Shown here one piece after another: positions 45,109-51,666 of a stretch of DNA of 64,000 bases (position 1 is its first letter; each line of letters begins with the position of its first letter). Made by a program: the position numbers and the translations under genes. The notes under the pieces are model-generated. The model was not told the origin of the DNA, made no database searches, and worked only from the letters and a program-made list of their open reading frames with translations. The stretch is from assembly GCF_003550015.1 (NCBI RefSeq), contig NZ_QXEV01000008.1:1-64000 (forward strand), read 5' to 3'. The stretch is from Anaeroplasma bactoclasticum. Its GTDB lineage: Bacteria > Bacillota_I > Bacilli_A > Acholeplasmatales > Anaeroplasmataceae.

Positions 45109-45192
45109 GTAAAAACCACTCCTAACTTGTTGAAAACCAACATATTTTTTTAGATATGTAAATAGTTATTATGATTTTGGAGCGTGATAATT

Positions 45193-48100
45193 ATGACTCG
45201 ACGTGATATCGAATTACTATTTAAAAATGAATCTTATGATGAAGCTATGAAGCTTTTAAGAAAAGAATTACAGGATGATTCTGAAAATGCTGAATGGTTT
45301 TATTATCTTTTTTTAGCAGAAAATGGGGATTATGCAAATATTAATTTAAATGATATTGTATGTGAATTTGATTTAAATCGAGCACTTGATTTTGCGAATG
45401 CGAGATTAAGAGAATCCTTTAATTCAGAATATAATTTTTATAAAGCAGTTGACCCAATTATAAGAAAATATTTTGCATATGCCTCAAGAGGAAATATGGA
45501 TAAGTTTGAACAATTATTGGATTCAGATGGATATAAATCAACAAAACTTATCCATGATGAATCTAGTACTAAGAATTTTTTAAGTAATTTAGATTATTTA
45601 GTTACATCTAGAATAAAGCCTGAAATTATAGACTTAAACTTATTAGCTATCAATATACTATATCTTGCAACCAATAATAAACAGATTTTAGATGTCTATA
45701 ATGTATTAAAAGAAAGAGCTGAAGAGGTTAGTACACTATTATCAAAGTCAAAATTAGCCGACAGCTTATATGAAATAAAAGAGTATATGCAAGCTTTAAA
45801 AGACAATAAGAGAGTTTCAAATGATGCTATAGAAGATGCTAAAAATAAACCTATTGAGGAAACTGATAATAGTTTGATTGATTCCGATAAGAATAAAACG
45901 ATTAATACTAATTCAAATTCAAAGCCTTCATCTAAAGGAAAAAGTGCTTTAGCTGTTGCAAATTCATATTTTTCAAGTTTAGATTATGAGTCTGCACAAA
46001 AAGAATATGAAAAAGTATTAGATAAAGATCCCAATAATATAGTCGCATTAAAGGGGAAAATACTTTGTTTAAACAAAAAGAATTCTTTTAGTGAACTCTT
46101 TAGTGCTCAGTTTAACAATATTGTTGAATATGAATTGTTAACAAAATATATAGAATATGCAAATAAGAGTGATAAAGAGGAAATACTATCTTTAATTGCT
46201 TCATATTGTAAGAAAGAAATTAATAATGATAATAGTTCCATATTATGTGCTTATAAATTCATTTGTGAATATAATTCACCTTTAGTTTTTGAATTGCATA
46301 ATTTCTTAATAACAAATATCGATAGTTTAAAAGATGATGCTTCAATATCCATTATTGATATTGCAATAAAGTATTTATCTAATGATCCAATCACTTTAAA
46401 AAATAAATTAAATATCATCATAAAAAAAGCTCTTGAAGAGAGCTTATTTGATATTGCTAATAAATATTTTAAACAATATAAATTAATCTCCAATATTGAT
46501 TATGATTATTATATTTTTGACTTATGCATAAAATATAATAAAAGTACCTTTTATCAATTATTAAAGGAATTCGAAGATGAAAAGAGAATCAATAGAATCG
46601 ATGACATTATAAATGGAGTATCGTCGGATGTTTCTAATGGAGTTCTAAAAGATTGTTCTTTATATACTTTGGAAAATTTAAATAAGAAATCATATTCATC
46701 AGCATTATATTGGATAAGGTATTTATTGAAATACGATTATAGTTTTAAAAACGAATTTGTAAATCAATTATTTAAATATTGTTGTGATAATCCATGTTCT
46801 GAAATATTTACAATCTTTGATTACTTGATAGAGAATAATAAAGATGCATGTGCCATTTATAATAATTACATAAAACAAATGGCAATGGTATGCCATAAGA
46901 ATAAGTTATGGGGGTATTCAGATAGATATTATTCTATTATTTGTTCTAATAATCCAAATGACCACAAAGCTTATTGGGAATTATTACAATCCAAATTAAG
47001 ATGCTTAGATAATGAAGAGCTTATTCATCAAAATACTTTAATTGACACTTTAGAAGAGTATAATAATACAATAAATGCTGCAAGTAATAGTGGAGAAAAT
47101 ATAGATTATTATATTAACTGCTTAGCTGAACAAAAAAAGTGGATAAATCAGTCACTAAGGAAAAAGAAGTTTATAAAAATAGGAATAATTAGTAGTTCTA
47201 TAGCCACTATAGCTATTTTATTTTTTATTTTATTGTTGAATCTATGGATTATACCAAGTAATAAGTATAATAATGCGTTGAATTTGATTAATGAAGGCAA
47301 ATACAATGAAGCAAGAGAAATCTTGGAAAGTATGGATTATTCAGATTCAAAACAAAAAATTATTATGCTTGATGCGAATAATGCATTTGCTTCAGGAGAG
47401 TATGAAAAAGGAATTAAATGTATAGAAAGTATTTCAGGAGAGACGAATGTATCTTATTCGCTAGATTGTGTAACAACCATAAAACAAGGTTATGAAATTA
47501 AATGGGAATTAGTTGGTTATAGTATTGACTTTGAAAATCACTCTGCAAATATTCGATTGAAATCATTTTATACTTTGATAAATTATGATATTTTGTATGA
47601 TCTTAACGGAAGTGATAACAATTCTAATCCGACTACATATAATTTCGAATCAGATACTATAGTATTAAATGATATAGAAAAAACAGGCTATACATTCTTG
47701 GGTTGGACAACAAGCGATATTCAAGTTCCAACAAAAGGTTTAACAATCGAACACAATTCAATTGGGAATAAAAGTTTTACGGCACATTTTGAAATAAATT
47801 CATATAAAATTACAATTGATAATACAATAGAAGAGGTTTCTATTTCAGGTATTACAAGTGGACTTGAAGTTGATTATGGTAGAAAAATTCATTTAACTGC
47901 AGAAAACGTTCCATTAGGAAATATAATAATGTGGGAAAGAAATGATGGTGTAGTATATATTGGTAATAGATATGAATTTGATGTTCCTGCAAGAGATATA
48001 ACAATTAAAACTACTTTTGCGCCTTATTCGAGATATGAAAATAAAATTATATTTGGCACATATCCTCAGAAAAAAATAGAGGCAACAGAAGACAATGGAC

Positions 48101-48930
48101 TTATATCATTTACATTTGACGAATTAACATGGACAAGTTATAAATATTATGTTTCGTCATCACAAAGCGATTTTATGTATTATAAGGATATAGATATAGA
48201 TAATAATGGAACGTATGACTATAGGGGTGTATATATCAATCGGTATAGACCAAAACATTGTGATGATAAATTTGAAATTTATACAAAATATATAGACCAA
48301 TATCAAAATGGATATGAGGGTGCCAAAATCTATTGGTTCAGTTATGACCCGATTGAATGGACTATATTAAAAGAAGAAAATGGTAAAGCGTTAATAATAG
48401 CTAATCTAATACTAGATTCTCAAGAATATCATCCAAATGATAACGGTTTGCAATTTGAACATAATGGTGGGAATGGATATGCTAACAATTATGAATTATC
48501 ACAAATAAGAAAATTTTTAAATGAAACATTCTATAATACTGCATTTAATGATTTACAAAAATCATTGGTAGAAACAACTTTAGTAGATAATACTTTTAAA
48601 TCGGCTGGATACAAGTCAAGTAATTATTCATGTGATAATACAAATGATAAAATATTTTTGTTATCAAGTAGCGAAGCAATATCATATTATACATCAAATG
48701 ATGCACGGCAAGCTAATGGATCAGAGTATGCTAAATGTCAAGGTCTCTATGTAGCAAAATCAGATGATTATGTTGGATATAGTTATTGGTGGTTGCGTTC
48801 TTTTAGTGAGTATTATCGCTCATCTGCTCAATATGTTGATATAGATGGTGATTTGTCCCTTCGCATTGTCAATACAACTGAAATAGGTGTTCGTCCAGTT
48901 TGCTGGATTAACCTATCAAAAAGGGTTTAG
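45193..48930 (+). CDS. Large TPR / transmembrane / InlB-repeat / DUF6273 surface protein
   Basis: A 1245-aa membrane protein. The cytoplasmic N-terminal part (residues 1-656) holds TPR-like helical hairpins (for example SYFSSLDYESAQKEYEKVL near 260) and a Ser/Asn/Lys-rich linker (220-250). One membrane helix spans about 661-683. Outside are another TPR-like pair (about 690-745), a Listeria-Bacteroides (InlB B) repeat with YDLNG...GYTFLGWTT (798-867), a second beta unit, and a C-terminal DUF6273-like domain (951-1245: FGTYPQ, PIEWTILKEENGKALIIA, KIFLLSS, YWWLRS, GVRPVCWINL). ATG 45193 follows GGAG; GTG 45184 overlaps that site. Unknown role, perhaps sensing or adhesion. Confidence 0.75.
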   Translation: MTRRDIELLFKNESYDEAMKLLRKELQDDSENAEWFYYLFLAENGDYANINLNDIVCEFDLNRALDFANARLRESFNSEYNFYKAVDPIIRKYFAYASRGNMDKFEQLLDSDGYKSTKLIHDESSTKNFLSNLDYLVTSRIKPEIIDLNLLAINILYLATNNKQILDVYNVLKERAEEVSTLLSKSKLADSLYEIKEYMQALKDNKRVSNDAIEDAKNKPIEETDNSLIDSDKNKTINTNSNSKPSSKGKSALAVANSYFSSLDYESAQKEYEKVLDKDPNNIVALKGKILCLNKKNSFSELFSAQFNNIVEYELLTKYIEYANKSDKEEILSLIASYCKKEINNDNSSILCAYKFICEYNSPLVFELHNFLITNIDSLKDDASISIIDIAIKYLSNDPITLKNKLNIIIKKALEESLFDIANKYFKQYKLISNIDYDYYIFDLCIKYNKSTFYQLLKEFEDEKRINRIDDIINGVSSDVSNGVLKDCSLYTLENLNKKSYSSALYWIRYLLKYDYSFKNEFVNQLFKYCCDNPCSEIFTIFDYLIENNKDACAIYNNYIKQMAMVCHKNKLWGYSDRYYSIICSNNPNDHKAYWELLQSKLRCLDNEELIHQNTLIDTLEEYNNTINAASNSGENIDYYINCLAEQKKWINQSLRKKKFIKIGIISSSIATIAILFFILLLNLWIIPSNKYNNALNLINEGKYNEAREILESMDYSDSKQKIIMLDANNAFASGEYEKGIKCIESISGETNVSYSLDCVTTIKQGYEIKWELVGYSIDFENHSANIRLKSFYTLINYDILYDLNGSDNNSNPTTYNFESDTIVLNDIEKTGYTFLGWTTSDIQVPTKGLTIEHNSIGNKSFTAHFEINSYKITIDNTIEEVSISGITSGLEVDYGRKIHLTAENVPLGNIIMWERNDGVVYIGNRYEFDVPARDITIKTTFAPYSRYENKIIFGTYPQKKIEATEDNGLISFTFDELTWTSYKYYVSSSQSDFMYYKDIDIDNNGTYDYRGVYINRYRPKHCDDKFEIYTKYIDQYQNGYEGAKIYWFSYDPIEWTILKEENGKALIIANLILDSQEYHPNDNGLQFEHNGGNGYANNYELSQIRKFLNETFYNTAFNDLQKSLVETTLVDNTFKSAGYKSSNYSCDNTNDKIFLLSSSEAISYYTSNDARQANGSEYAKCQGLYVAKSDDYVGYSYWWLRSFSEYYRSSAQYVDIDGDLSLRIVNTTEIGVRPVCWINLSKRV

Positions 48931-49865: not shown

Positions 49866-49886
49866 CTATATTTATTATAAATTGTG

Positions 49887-49892
49887 TATAAT
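49887..49892 (+). promoter_or_regulatory. -10 box of the ABC transporter operon
   Basis: A perfect TATAAT 31 bases before the substrate-binding protein start. No -35 box is found at the right distance, which fits dependence on the activator at 49850. Confidence 0.65.
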
Positions 49893-49922
49893 AATAAGGC
49901 AATAGAAAAAGGAGATTTTAAC

Positions 49923-50933
49923 ATGAAAAGAATTGGAATATTATTTGGATTAGCCGCTATCGGCTTACTTGCTTCCTGTGGTAATGAAGCAAATACAACT
50001 ACAGAAAAGAAGGATGAAACTACAACAGTAGTACCTACAACTTCAGAAACAACAACAGTAGTACCTACAACTACAGTAGATGAAACACCTGTATCTATCA
50101 TTTGTCCATCTGGTACCCCTGCACTAGGCTTGGCAAATTATTATGATAGTGTAGATGGTGCATCCTTTGAAATCGTAAATGGTGCAGATCAGCTTGTTGC
50201 TGCATTTGGTACAAAGAGCCATGATGTTATTGTTGCACCAGTAAACCTAGGTGCAAAATTCTATAATACAAACGAGAATTATGTATTAGCTAAAACCTTC
50301 GTATGGGGTAATTTATTCTTAGCTTCTAAGGCTGAATTAACTTCATTTGAGGATATTAACAACAAAAAGCTTGTTGTATTTGGTAAGAATTCTACACCAG
50401 ATATTCTTACTAAAATATTAATTCAGGAAAAGAGTTTAAATGTTGAAATTGAATATGTAGATGATGTTGCATCTGCAAATTCAGTTCTTGTTGCAGGTAC
50501 TGCAGAATATGTAATTACTGCAGAACCAGCAATTTCTAAGATTAAGGATGCAAAGGGCATTAATGTAATTGATTTACAGGATGAATATAAGAAGGTAACA
50601 GGTAAGGATTCTTATCCTCAGGCTGGTATCTTTATTAAAAAAGAAGCAAAAGAGGATAGTAAGGTATTAAATGCAGTTGATGCGCTAGTAAATAGTGTTA
50701 AGGATGCAGTAGAAAAACCTGCGGATACTGCTAAGAAGGCAGTAGCTATGCACAAATCCTTTGAGACTTTAGGTGAGGCTGCATTAACAAAGGCAATTCC
50801 TAATTGTCATTTCATTATTATGGATCATGATAAAGAGGTTGCAGCTGTAAATGAGTACCTTCAGTATATGATTGATTTAGGATTTGGAAAACAGGCTGGA
50901 GACAAGCTTCCAAATGAAGAATTCTTCCTATAA
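49923..50933 (+). CDS. ABC transporter substrate-binding lipoprotein
   Basis: A 336-aa lipoprotein. Signal MKRIGILFGLAAIGLLASC ends in the lipobox LASC (Cys 19). A Thr-rich linker with two copies of a 10-residue unit (ETTTVVPTTS, ETTTVVPTTT) follows, then a periplasmic-binding-like domain (ICPSGTPALGLANYY, DVIVAPVNLGAKFY, WGNLFLASK, KKLVVFGKNSTPD) of the NMT1/SsuA type used for sulfonates, nitrate, taurine or pyrimidine precursors. The downstream permease overlaps by 20 bases. AAGGAG precedes ATG 49923. Substrate not resolvable. Confidence 0.85.
   Translation: MKRIGILFGLAAIGLLASCGNEANTTTEKKDETTTVVPTTSETTTVVPTTTVDETPVSIICPSGTPALGLANYYDSVDGASFEIVNGADQLVAAFGTKSHDVIVAPVNLGAKFYNTNENYVLAKTFVWGNLFLASKAELTSFEDINNKKLVVFGKNSTPDILTKILIQEKSLNVEIEYVDDVASANSVLVAGTAEYVITAEPAISKIKDAKGINVIDLQDEYKKVTGKDSYPQAGIFIKKEAKEDSKVLNAVDALVNSVKDAVEKPADTAKKAVAMHKSFETLGEAALTKAIPNCHFIIMDHDKEVAAVNEYLQYMIDLGFGKQAGDKLPNEEFFL
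50016..50075 (+). repeat. 30-bp tandem duplication in the lipoprotein linker
   Basis: Two adjacent 30-bp units (50016-50045 and 50046-50075) share 21 identical consecutive bases, 30 bases apart, and encode the Thr/Val/Pro linker unit. They are likely to change copy number by replication slippage without breaking the frame. Confidence 0.85.
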
Positions 50934-51666
50934 GCATATTGGAATATCTGTATCTGTCATTATTTTACTCATCATTATTTATCAAATATTTACTATCCTG
51001 AATCAAGATGATATCTTTTTCCCTGGAATTAATGATATTTTTATGAAATTGGGTGGAGTTTTAGGCTCAAGGGACGCTTTATTATTACTTTCTTTGCTCG
51101 GTAAAATTCTAATCGTTTTAGTTGTGTCCTTTCTAATTAGTCTACTCATTCATTTTATTAATTATGTATTTAAATACAATGTGGATATTGTGAATCCGAT
51201 TATGTTTATTATTAAAGCATGTCCATTCGCAATTGTATCAGTTTATTTATACATATTATTATTCAAAAATAAAGAAATTATACCCTATATTGTATGCTTT
51301 TTAGTCGTATTTCCTGTAGTATATGAAGGAGTGAAGCAAGCTTTATCTATAGATAAGGATATCGTAGCTGAATTATCCTTACTCCCTGGCCCAAGATACA
51401 TGAAATATACTAGAATCTATGTACCACTTGCAATATCTCCTATGCTTATTACCCTACTTCAGGGTATAAGCTTAGGTGTAAAGGTAATGGTTATGGCAGA
51501 ATACATTTGTAGCTTGAATAATTCTATAGGCTTAATCATTAATAATGCGAAGCTTGAGCTTGATTTTTCAACGATTCTAGCTTGGCTTATTCTACTTGTA
51601 GTTATCATTATTATCTTTGATGTAAGTATTAATTTATTGAAGAAGAAGATGGATTCTTTAAAATAG
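50914..51666 (+). CDS. ABC transporter permease (SsuC/TauC-like)
   Basis: A 250-aa permease with about six membrane helices. The cytoplasmic coupling loop appears as LPGPRYMKYTRIYVPLAISPM, in parts ELSLLPGPRYMKY then RIYVPLAIS, close to the EAA motif region of binding-protein-dependent permeases. It starts 20 bases inside the substrate-binding gene with GGAG about 12 bases upstream. No ATP-binding subunit follows; a terminator closes the operon, so the ATPase must come from elsewhere. Confidence 0.85.
   Translation: MKNSSYKHIGISVSVIILLIIIYQIFTILNQDDIFFPGINDIFMKLGGVLGSRDALLLLSLLGKILIVLVVSFLISLLIHFINYVFKYNVDIVNPIMFIIKACPFAIVSVYLYILLFKNKEIIPYIVCFLVVFPVVYEGVKQALSIDKDIVAELSLLPGPRYMKYTRIYVPLAISPMLITLLQGISLGVKVMVMAEYICSLNNSIGLIINNAKLELDFSTILAWLILLVVIIIIFDVSINLLKKKMDSLK

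Follow-up and report, generated by a model that had tools for sequence, protein, structure and literature searches.

The gene at positions 45193–48930 of the 64,000-nucleotide stretch of Anaeroplasma bactoclasticum DNA analysed here (the window) encodes a protein of 1245 aa that is probably a surface-displayed binding protein, whether adhesin or ligand-capture receptor, in which the lipid anchor has been replaced by a transmembrane helix and a cytoplasmic TPR scaffold. The parts are known, ordinary and recurrent; the combination is new and was found in one genome. Four steps of the argument are given directly by the data: the order of the domains, a single predicted helix, an orientation read from charge and homology, and a head homologous to the heads of lipoproteins.

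Domain architecture and predicted topology

The reading frame is intact, from the ATG at 45193 to the stop at 48930 on the forward strand, and the features detected in and around it are as follows (all on the + strand).

45193–48930, +: whole gene, 1245 aa, frame read from the sequence
45179–45182, +: GGAG, likely ribosome-binding site, 10 nt 5′ of the ATG (sequence)
45193–45807, +: N-terminal cytoplasmic TPR-like module, residues 1–205 (blastp, profile searches, AlphaFold2 pLDDT mostly 71–94); precedes several other C-termini in the genus
45808–45945, +: low-complexity disordered linker, residues 206–251 (sequence; pLDDT 24–43 over 211–250)
45946–47172, +: alpha-solenoid, residues 252–660 (Pfam, AlphaFold2, fold search), with TPR_19 at 264–298 (E 1e-7, 32.6 bits, cut-off 25)
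47191–47253, +: single membrane helix, residues 667–687, positive-inside (hydropathy, charge)
47266–47430, +: extracellular TPR-like hairpin repeat (ANAPC3/TPR-type), residues 692–746 (Pfam 28.5 bits, cut-off 27.2; 17.1 bits alone)
47584–47799, +: InlB B-repeat/Listeria-Bacteroides repeat, residues 798–869 (Pfam Flg_new at 798–841, E 4e-7, 30.4 bits, cut-off 27; NCBIfam TIGR02543 at 830–867, E 1.4e-8, 34.9 bits, cut-off 20.95)
47800–48024, +: probable second, divergent InlB-type unit, residues 870–944 (weak Flg_new_2 in homologues, no hit in the window copy)
48043–48378, +: conserved extension before the Pfam domain, residues 951–1062, first motif FGTYPQ (31-homologue alignment)
48193–48219, +: acidic loop DIDNNGTYD, residues 1001–1009, in a form kept in most of the 31 homologues
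48379–48912, +: DUF6273 domain (PF19789), residues 1063–1240 (Pfam E 2.8e-22, 79.8 bits, cut-off 23.5, model positions 1–171 of 172); C-type-lectin fold by literature (PMC10743442)
49195–49228, +: terminator-like hairpin, separating this gene from a crp-like gene on the opposite strand

Pfam/NCBIfam, AlphaFold2 and hydropathy agree with the preliminary description in placing cytoplasmic helical repeats, a membrane helix, an InlB repeat and DUF6273 in the one 1245-aa chain. That description had put the repeats inside only, and a solenoid does occupy residues 1–660, but the TPR-like hairpin at 692–746, outside the membrane, had been missed. Similarly, the one membrane helix that it expected at 661–683 is present, although its position is nearer 667–687. 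In the 31-homologue alignment the conserved C-terminal unit begins at about residue 951, some 110 residues ahead of the Pfam boundary of DUF6273, and within this extension the DIDNNGTYD loop resembles a calcium-binding loop and may bind calcium.

The best hydrophobic 19-mer averages 2.59 and nowhere else in the protein does the value exceed 1.28; 27 of 2000 shuffles of the protein reached 2.5. There is no visible N-terminal signal peptide, the first 60 aa peaking at 0.38. Five K/R and no D/E occur in the 15 residues before the membrane helix and, because relatives carry the outer half on lipobox lipoproteins, that half is placed outside the cell. Charge and, independently, the lipobox homologues support the arrangement proposed earlier, of a scaffold inside, one helix and a head outside. 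Two other identities were considered and rejected: the protein is not an internalin, having neither an LRR match nor an N-terminal signal peptide, nor is it itself a bacterial surface lipoprotein, since unlike the homologues of its head it has no hydrophobic N-terminus.

Structure prediction of the N-terminal part, one of the checks proposed at the outset, gave for residues 1–692 an all-helical, TPR-like AlphaFold2 model (pLDDT mostly 71–94 over 1–205 and about 44–84 over 252–660), in which a single unbroken helix, 638–686, leads from the solenoid into the membrane segment. In Foldseek and VIA comparisons this model resembled TPR and other helical-repeat chains with Z up to 9.9, a level common for helical repeats, and we take from these searches only that the region is a predicted ‘TPR-like solenoid’, reading no specific function from them. 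For the head (945–1245) AlphaFold2, working from two sequences, returned a pLDDT of 31.7; because this model failed, the lectin fold is assigned here by family, from membership of DUF6273 and the published models. A reading of the protein as a single-pass receptor or scaffold, in which a head of C-type-lectin type is mechanically coupled through the one helix to the 650-residue TPR scaffold somewhat in the manner of an adhesion receptor, with a grip on a surface ligand outside and clustering or signalling inside, is rather unlikely in our judgement.

Locus and genome context

The gene is single, as had been stated: it is monocistronic, with a PNPOx-like gene upstream (84 nt gap) preceded by a hydrogenase operon, and with the terminator-like hairpin and the opposite-strand crp-like gene downstream. 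The gaps on either side are AT-rich, as described, yet ordinary. Codon use was said to be less biased than in the neighbours and is so to a small extent (Nc 39.3, against a typical 33–38), but the difference is weak, two neighbours being less biased still (45.0 and 49.5). Elsewhere in the window, at 49884–51666, substrate-binding-like and permease-like proteins are encoded in overlapping frames, with no Pfam match at 0.001.

The genome is an Anaeroplasma-like draft of 2.2 Mb in 58 contigs, 99% complete. No match to the transpeptidase PF00905 or the sortase PF04203 was found in it, while positive-control genomes did match; together with the taxonomy, this absence is consistent with a wall-less Mollicute. 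With penicillin-binding transpeptidase and sortase both lacking, the available route for displaying the head is membrane anchoring.

The draft state of the assembly, and the absence of the gene at this site in close relatives, might be taken as signs of an assembly or binning artefact. This is highly improbable: the gene is interior to an 81-kb contig and directly follows hydrogenase operon genes that share about 87–94% identity with their counterparts in three close relatives; homologues of each half of the protein also occur in the genus. The gene was absent 3′ of the hydrogenase operon in the eight relatives whose sequence extends at least about 0.65 kb downstream. This, and the appearance of the gene as a chimera of two modules, accord with the acquisition proposed earlier; its composition, however, is native rather than foreign-looking.

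The outer half is shared with lipoproteins

The outer half (about residues 785–1241) recurs across the genus and order, mostly at 40–60% identity and in many genomes in a search of 60 relatives. The N-termini of nearly all of its homologues (about 30) carry a lipobox or signal peptide, followed by further InlB repeats. Five such lipoproteins (L035, L036, L037, L038 and L040) share with the window protein the order of repeat followed by DUF6273, at about 47–55% identity over much of 785–1241, but their N-termini are lipobox signal peptides and they lack a cytoplasmic part. In a tree built from the last 300 residues the window copy falls within a lipoprotein group of nine (local support 0.98), where it pairs with a lipoprotein (local support 0.83). 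A further DUF6273/InlB protein (L055, 1331–4894) begins with three or four membrane segments, another anchor for the same head.

DUF6273 as a probable ligand-binding family

The preliminary description held that DUF6273 has no known function, a view now outdated (PMC10743442, PMC11792537, PMC12402451). Gut phages carry it as a variable domain presumed to bind receptors (PMC10743442, PMC11792537): in AlphaFold/DALI models the phage DUF6273 domains adopt a C-type-lectin fold with a hypermutated surface hairpin (PMC10743442), and the variable regions of diversity-generating retroelements (DGRs) are located at the C-terminus of DUF6273 (PMC11792537). The head of the window protein belongs to the same Pfam family as these phage tentaclins and Faecalibacterium DGR targets, in whose published models the variable hairpin lies at the surface of a C-type-lectin fold. 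Residues of about 1190–1235, the counterpart of that hairpin, are among the least conserved in the 31-homologue alignment. However, whereas the phage proteins are hypermutated by DGRs, no template repeat was found in this genome, in which matches beyond the sequence itself were ≤27 bases (best 25 bases), and the head was rejected as a DGR variable target. The reverse transcriptase read in the genome (L088, 1237–2525) resembles a group II intron maturase broken across two frames; two others are partial and unclassified.

In scans of viral contigs, further head homologues came from a single locus (L087, one of the two sequences behind the head model). Among PHROGs the head weakly matches phrog_9958 (unknown) and the Hoc-like phrog_10993, which fits the phage literature and is not specific.

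Two bacterial proteins offer further comparison. Filifactor alocis ADW16149.1 joins Listeria-Bacteroides and InlB repeats to DUF6273 (PMC9145396), as does the window protein, but has a copper amine oxidase N-terminal domain where the latter has TPRs and a membrane helix. The IgA protease ThomasA has an N-terminal DUF6273 domain with no significant effect on catalysis (PMC12402451). A broad DUF6273 profile (A8) matches the solved chain of an IgA protease, 9qa6_A (E 4.6e-14), presumably ThomasA; a narrower profile of close head homologues (A2) had no match among PDB sequences. The match to a DUF6273 profile is common to both, but ThomasA is a secreted metallopeptidase with a sortase motif and bears the domain N-terminally, unlike the C-terminal DUF6273 of the window protein.

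Relatives of the N-terminal module

The module formed by residues 1–205, which keeps its conserved residues in the window protein, is rarer than the outer half, with matches in 5/55 genomes of the family, all of one genus; of its two named relatives, one is from an Acholeplasmatales MAG and the other from an uncultured Anaeroplasma. For residues of about 300–660 no homologues were found in the relatives searched. Relatives of the module continue into two or more membrane segments in L049, L050 and L057, and in a paralogue in the same genome (L034, 8784–10328) the module leads into three membrane segments and then a C-terminal tail without a Pfam match. That the module precedes membrane segments in several relatives, this paralogue included, supports the reading of a membrane-anchored surface protein. 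It also precedes BspA-type LRRs, with no signal peptide, in one gene of L049 and in four tandem genes of L051 (944–8916, G015 contig 16), which apparently encode cytoplasmic LRR proteins. Because these L051 relatives have neither a membrane helix nor a signal peptide, anchoring is not a dedicated role of the module.

A class sample of 395 genomes added two weak matches, the TPR proteins L081 and L082; each contains a stretch recognised by the profile of the module, with E 5.8e-6 and 7e-4. L082 carries TIR_2 (8.5e-12) and L081 a membrane segment and LRR_5; unlike the window protein, neither has DUF6273 and both have zinc-ribbon-like CxxC pairs at the N-terminus. These distant relatives, and the continuous helix predicted to join solenoid and membrane segment, are what would recommend a transmembrane sensor, in which ligand binding by DUF6273 is relayed via the helix and the solenoid recruits or releases a cytoplasmic effector. 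We regard such a sensor as unlikely: the link to TIR proteins is weak, Pfam, NCBIfam and PADLOC scans of the protein revealed no output domain, whether kinase, cyclase, TIR or another, and the gene is monocistronic, its neighbours being the hydrogenase operon and the PNPOx-like and crp-like genes. Of the ‘signal transfer or surface assembly’ suggested by the preliminary description, surface assembly is compatible with the results, while signal transfer finds neither a signalling domain nor an operon partner.

The fusion of module relatives to TIR and LRR domains, taken with the use that gut phages make of DUF6273 for variable receptor binding, would also suit a role in phage defence or as a decoy. 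The lectin-like head would then encounter the receptor-binding proteins of phages, and the TPR half would act as an intracellular sensor. The protein has no PADLOC match at E 0.01, however, the gene is present in single copy, and no defence gene was seen among the neighbours scanned, making such a role very improbable.

The join was found in one genome only

From 392 genomes sampled across the phylum, 20 DUF6273 proteins were read. In 19 of them the N-terminus is a signal peptide, a lipobox or a membrane segment; the remaining one opens with a zinc ribbon and has five membrane segments. As to the co-occurrence of DUF6273 with TPRs, another check proposed beforehand, a long cytoplasmic TPR region is absent from all of the approximately 50 other DUF6273 proteins read (these 20 and about 30 of the genus and order). 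Stand-alone DUF6273 proteins of about 200 residues, with no signal peptide, occur at L104 (1492–2094) and L108 (1492–2163), indicating that the domain is not only extracellular.

The head is common; the join of TPRs, membrane helix and head appears unique to this genome among the proteins read, and the joined protein is present in 1/27 genomes of the genus. Such rarity is what would be expected of a chance fusion in which the TPR half, with little cytoplasmic function, is carried along as a passenger and the lipoprotein-like outer half alone counts. Against this, no break interrupts the 3.7-kb frame, the N-terminal module retains its conserved residues, and we consider a chance fusion improbable.

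Discussion

As a surface-displayed binding protein, the product of this gene would present its DUF6273 head on a short InlB-type stalk, where it could bind a ligand of host, mucus, microbial or phage-related origin. In the membrane, the usual lipid anchor would have been exchanged for one helix, and inside the cell the TPR solenoid may tie the protein, or a cluster of copies, to cytoplasmic partners, so that the TPR part might contribute lateral organisation or mechanical grip.

The family evidence corrects the view of DUF6273 as uninformative, and points to a ligand-binding, lectin-fold domain. The protein itself suggests how, in this genus of apparently wall-less gut bacteria, a common surface binding head is moved from one kind of anchor to another, lipid in most cases and a transmembrane TPR anchor here. 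If the solenoid organises or senses the head, the protein would represent a compact coupling of outside to inside in a cell without a wall.
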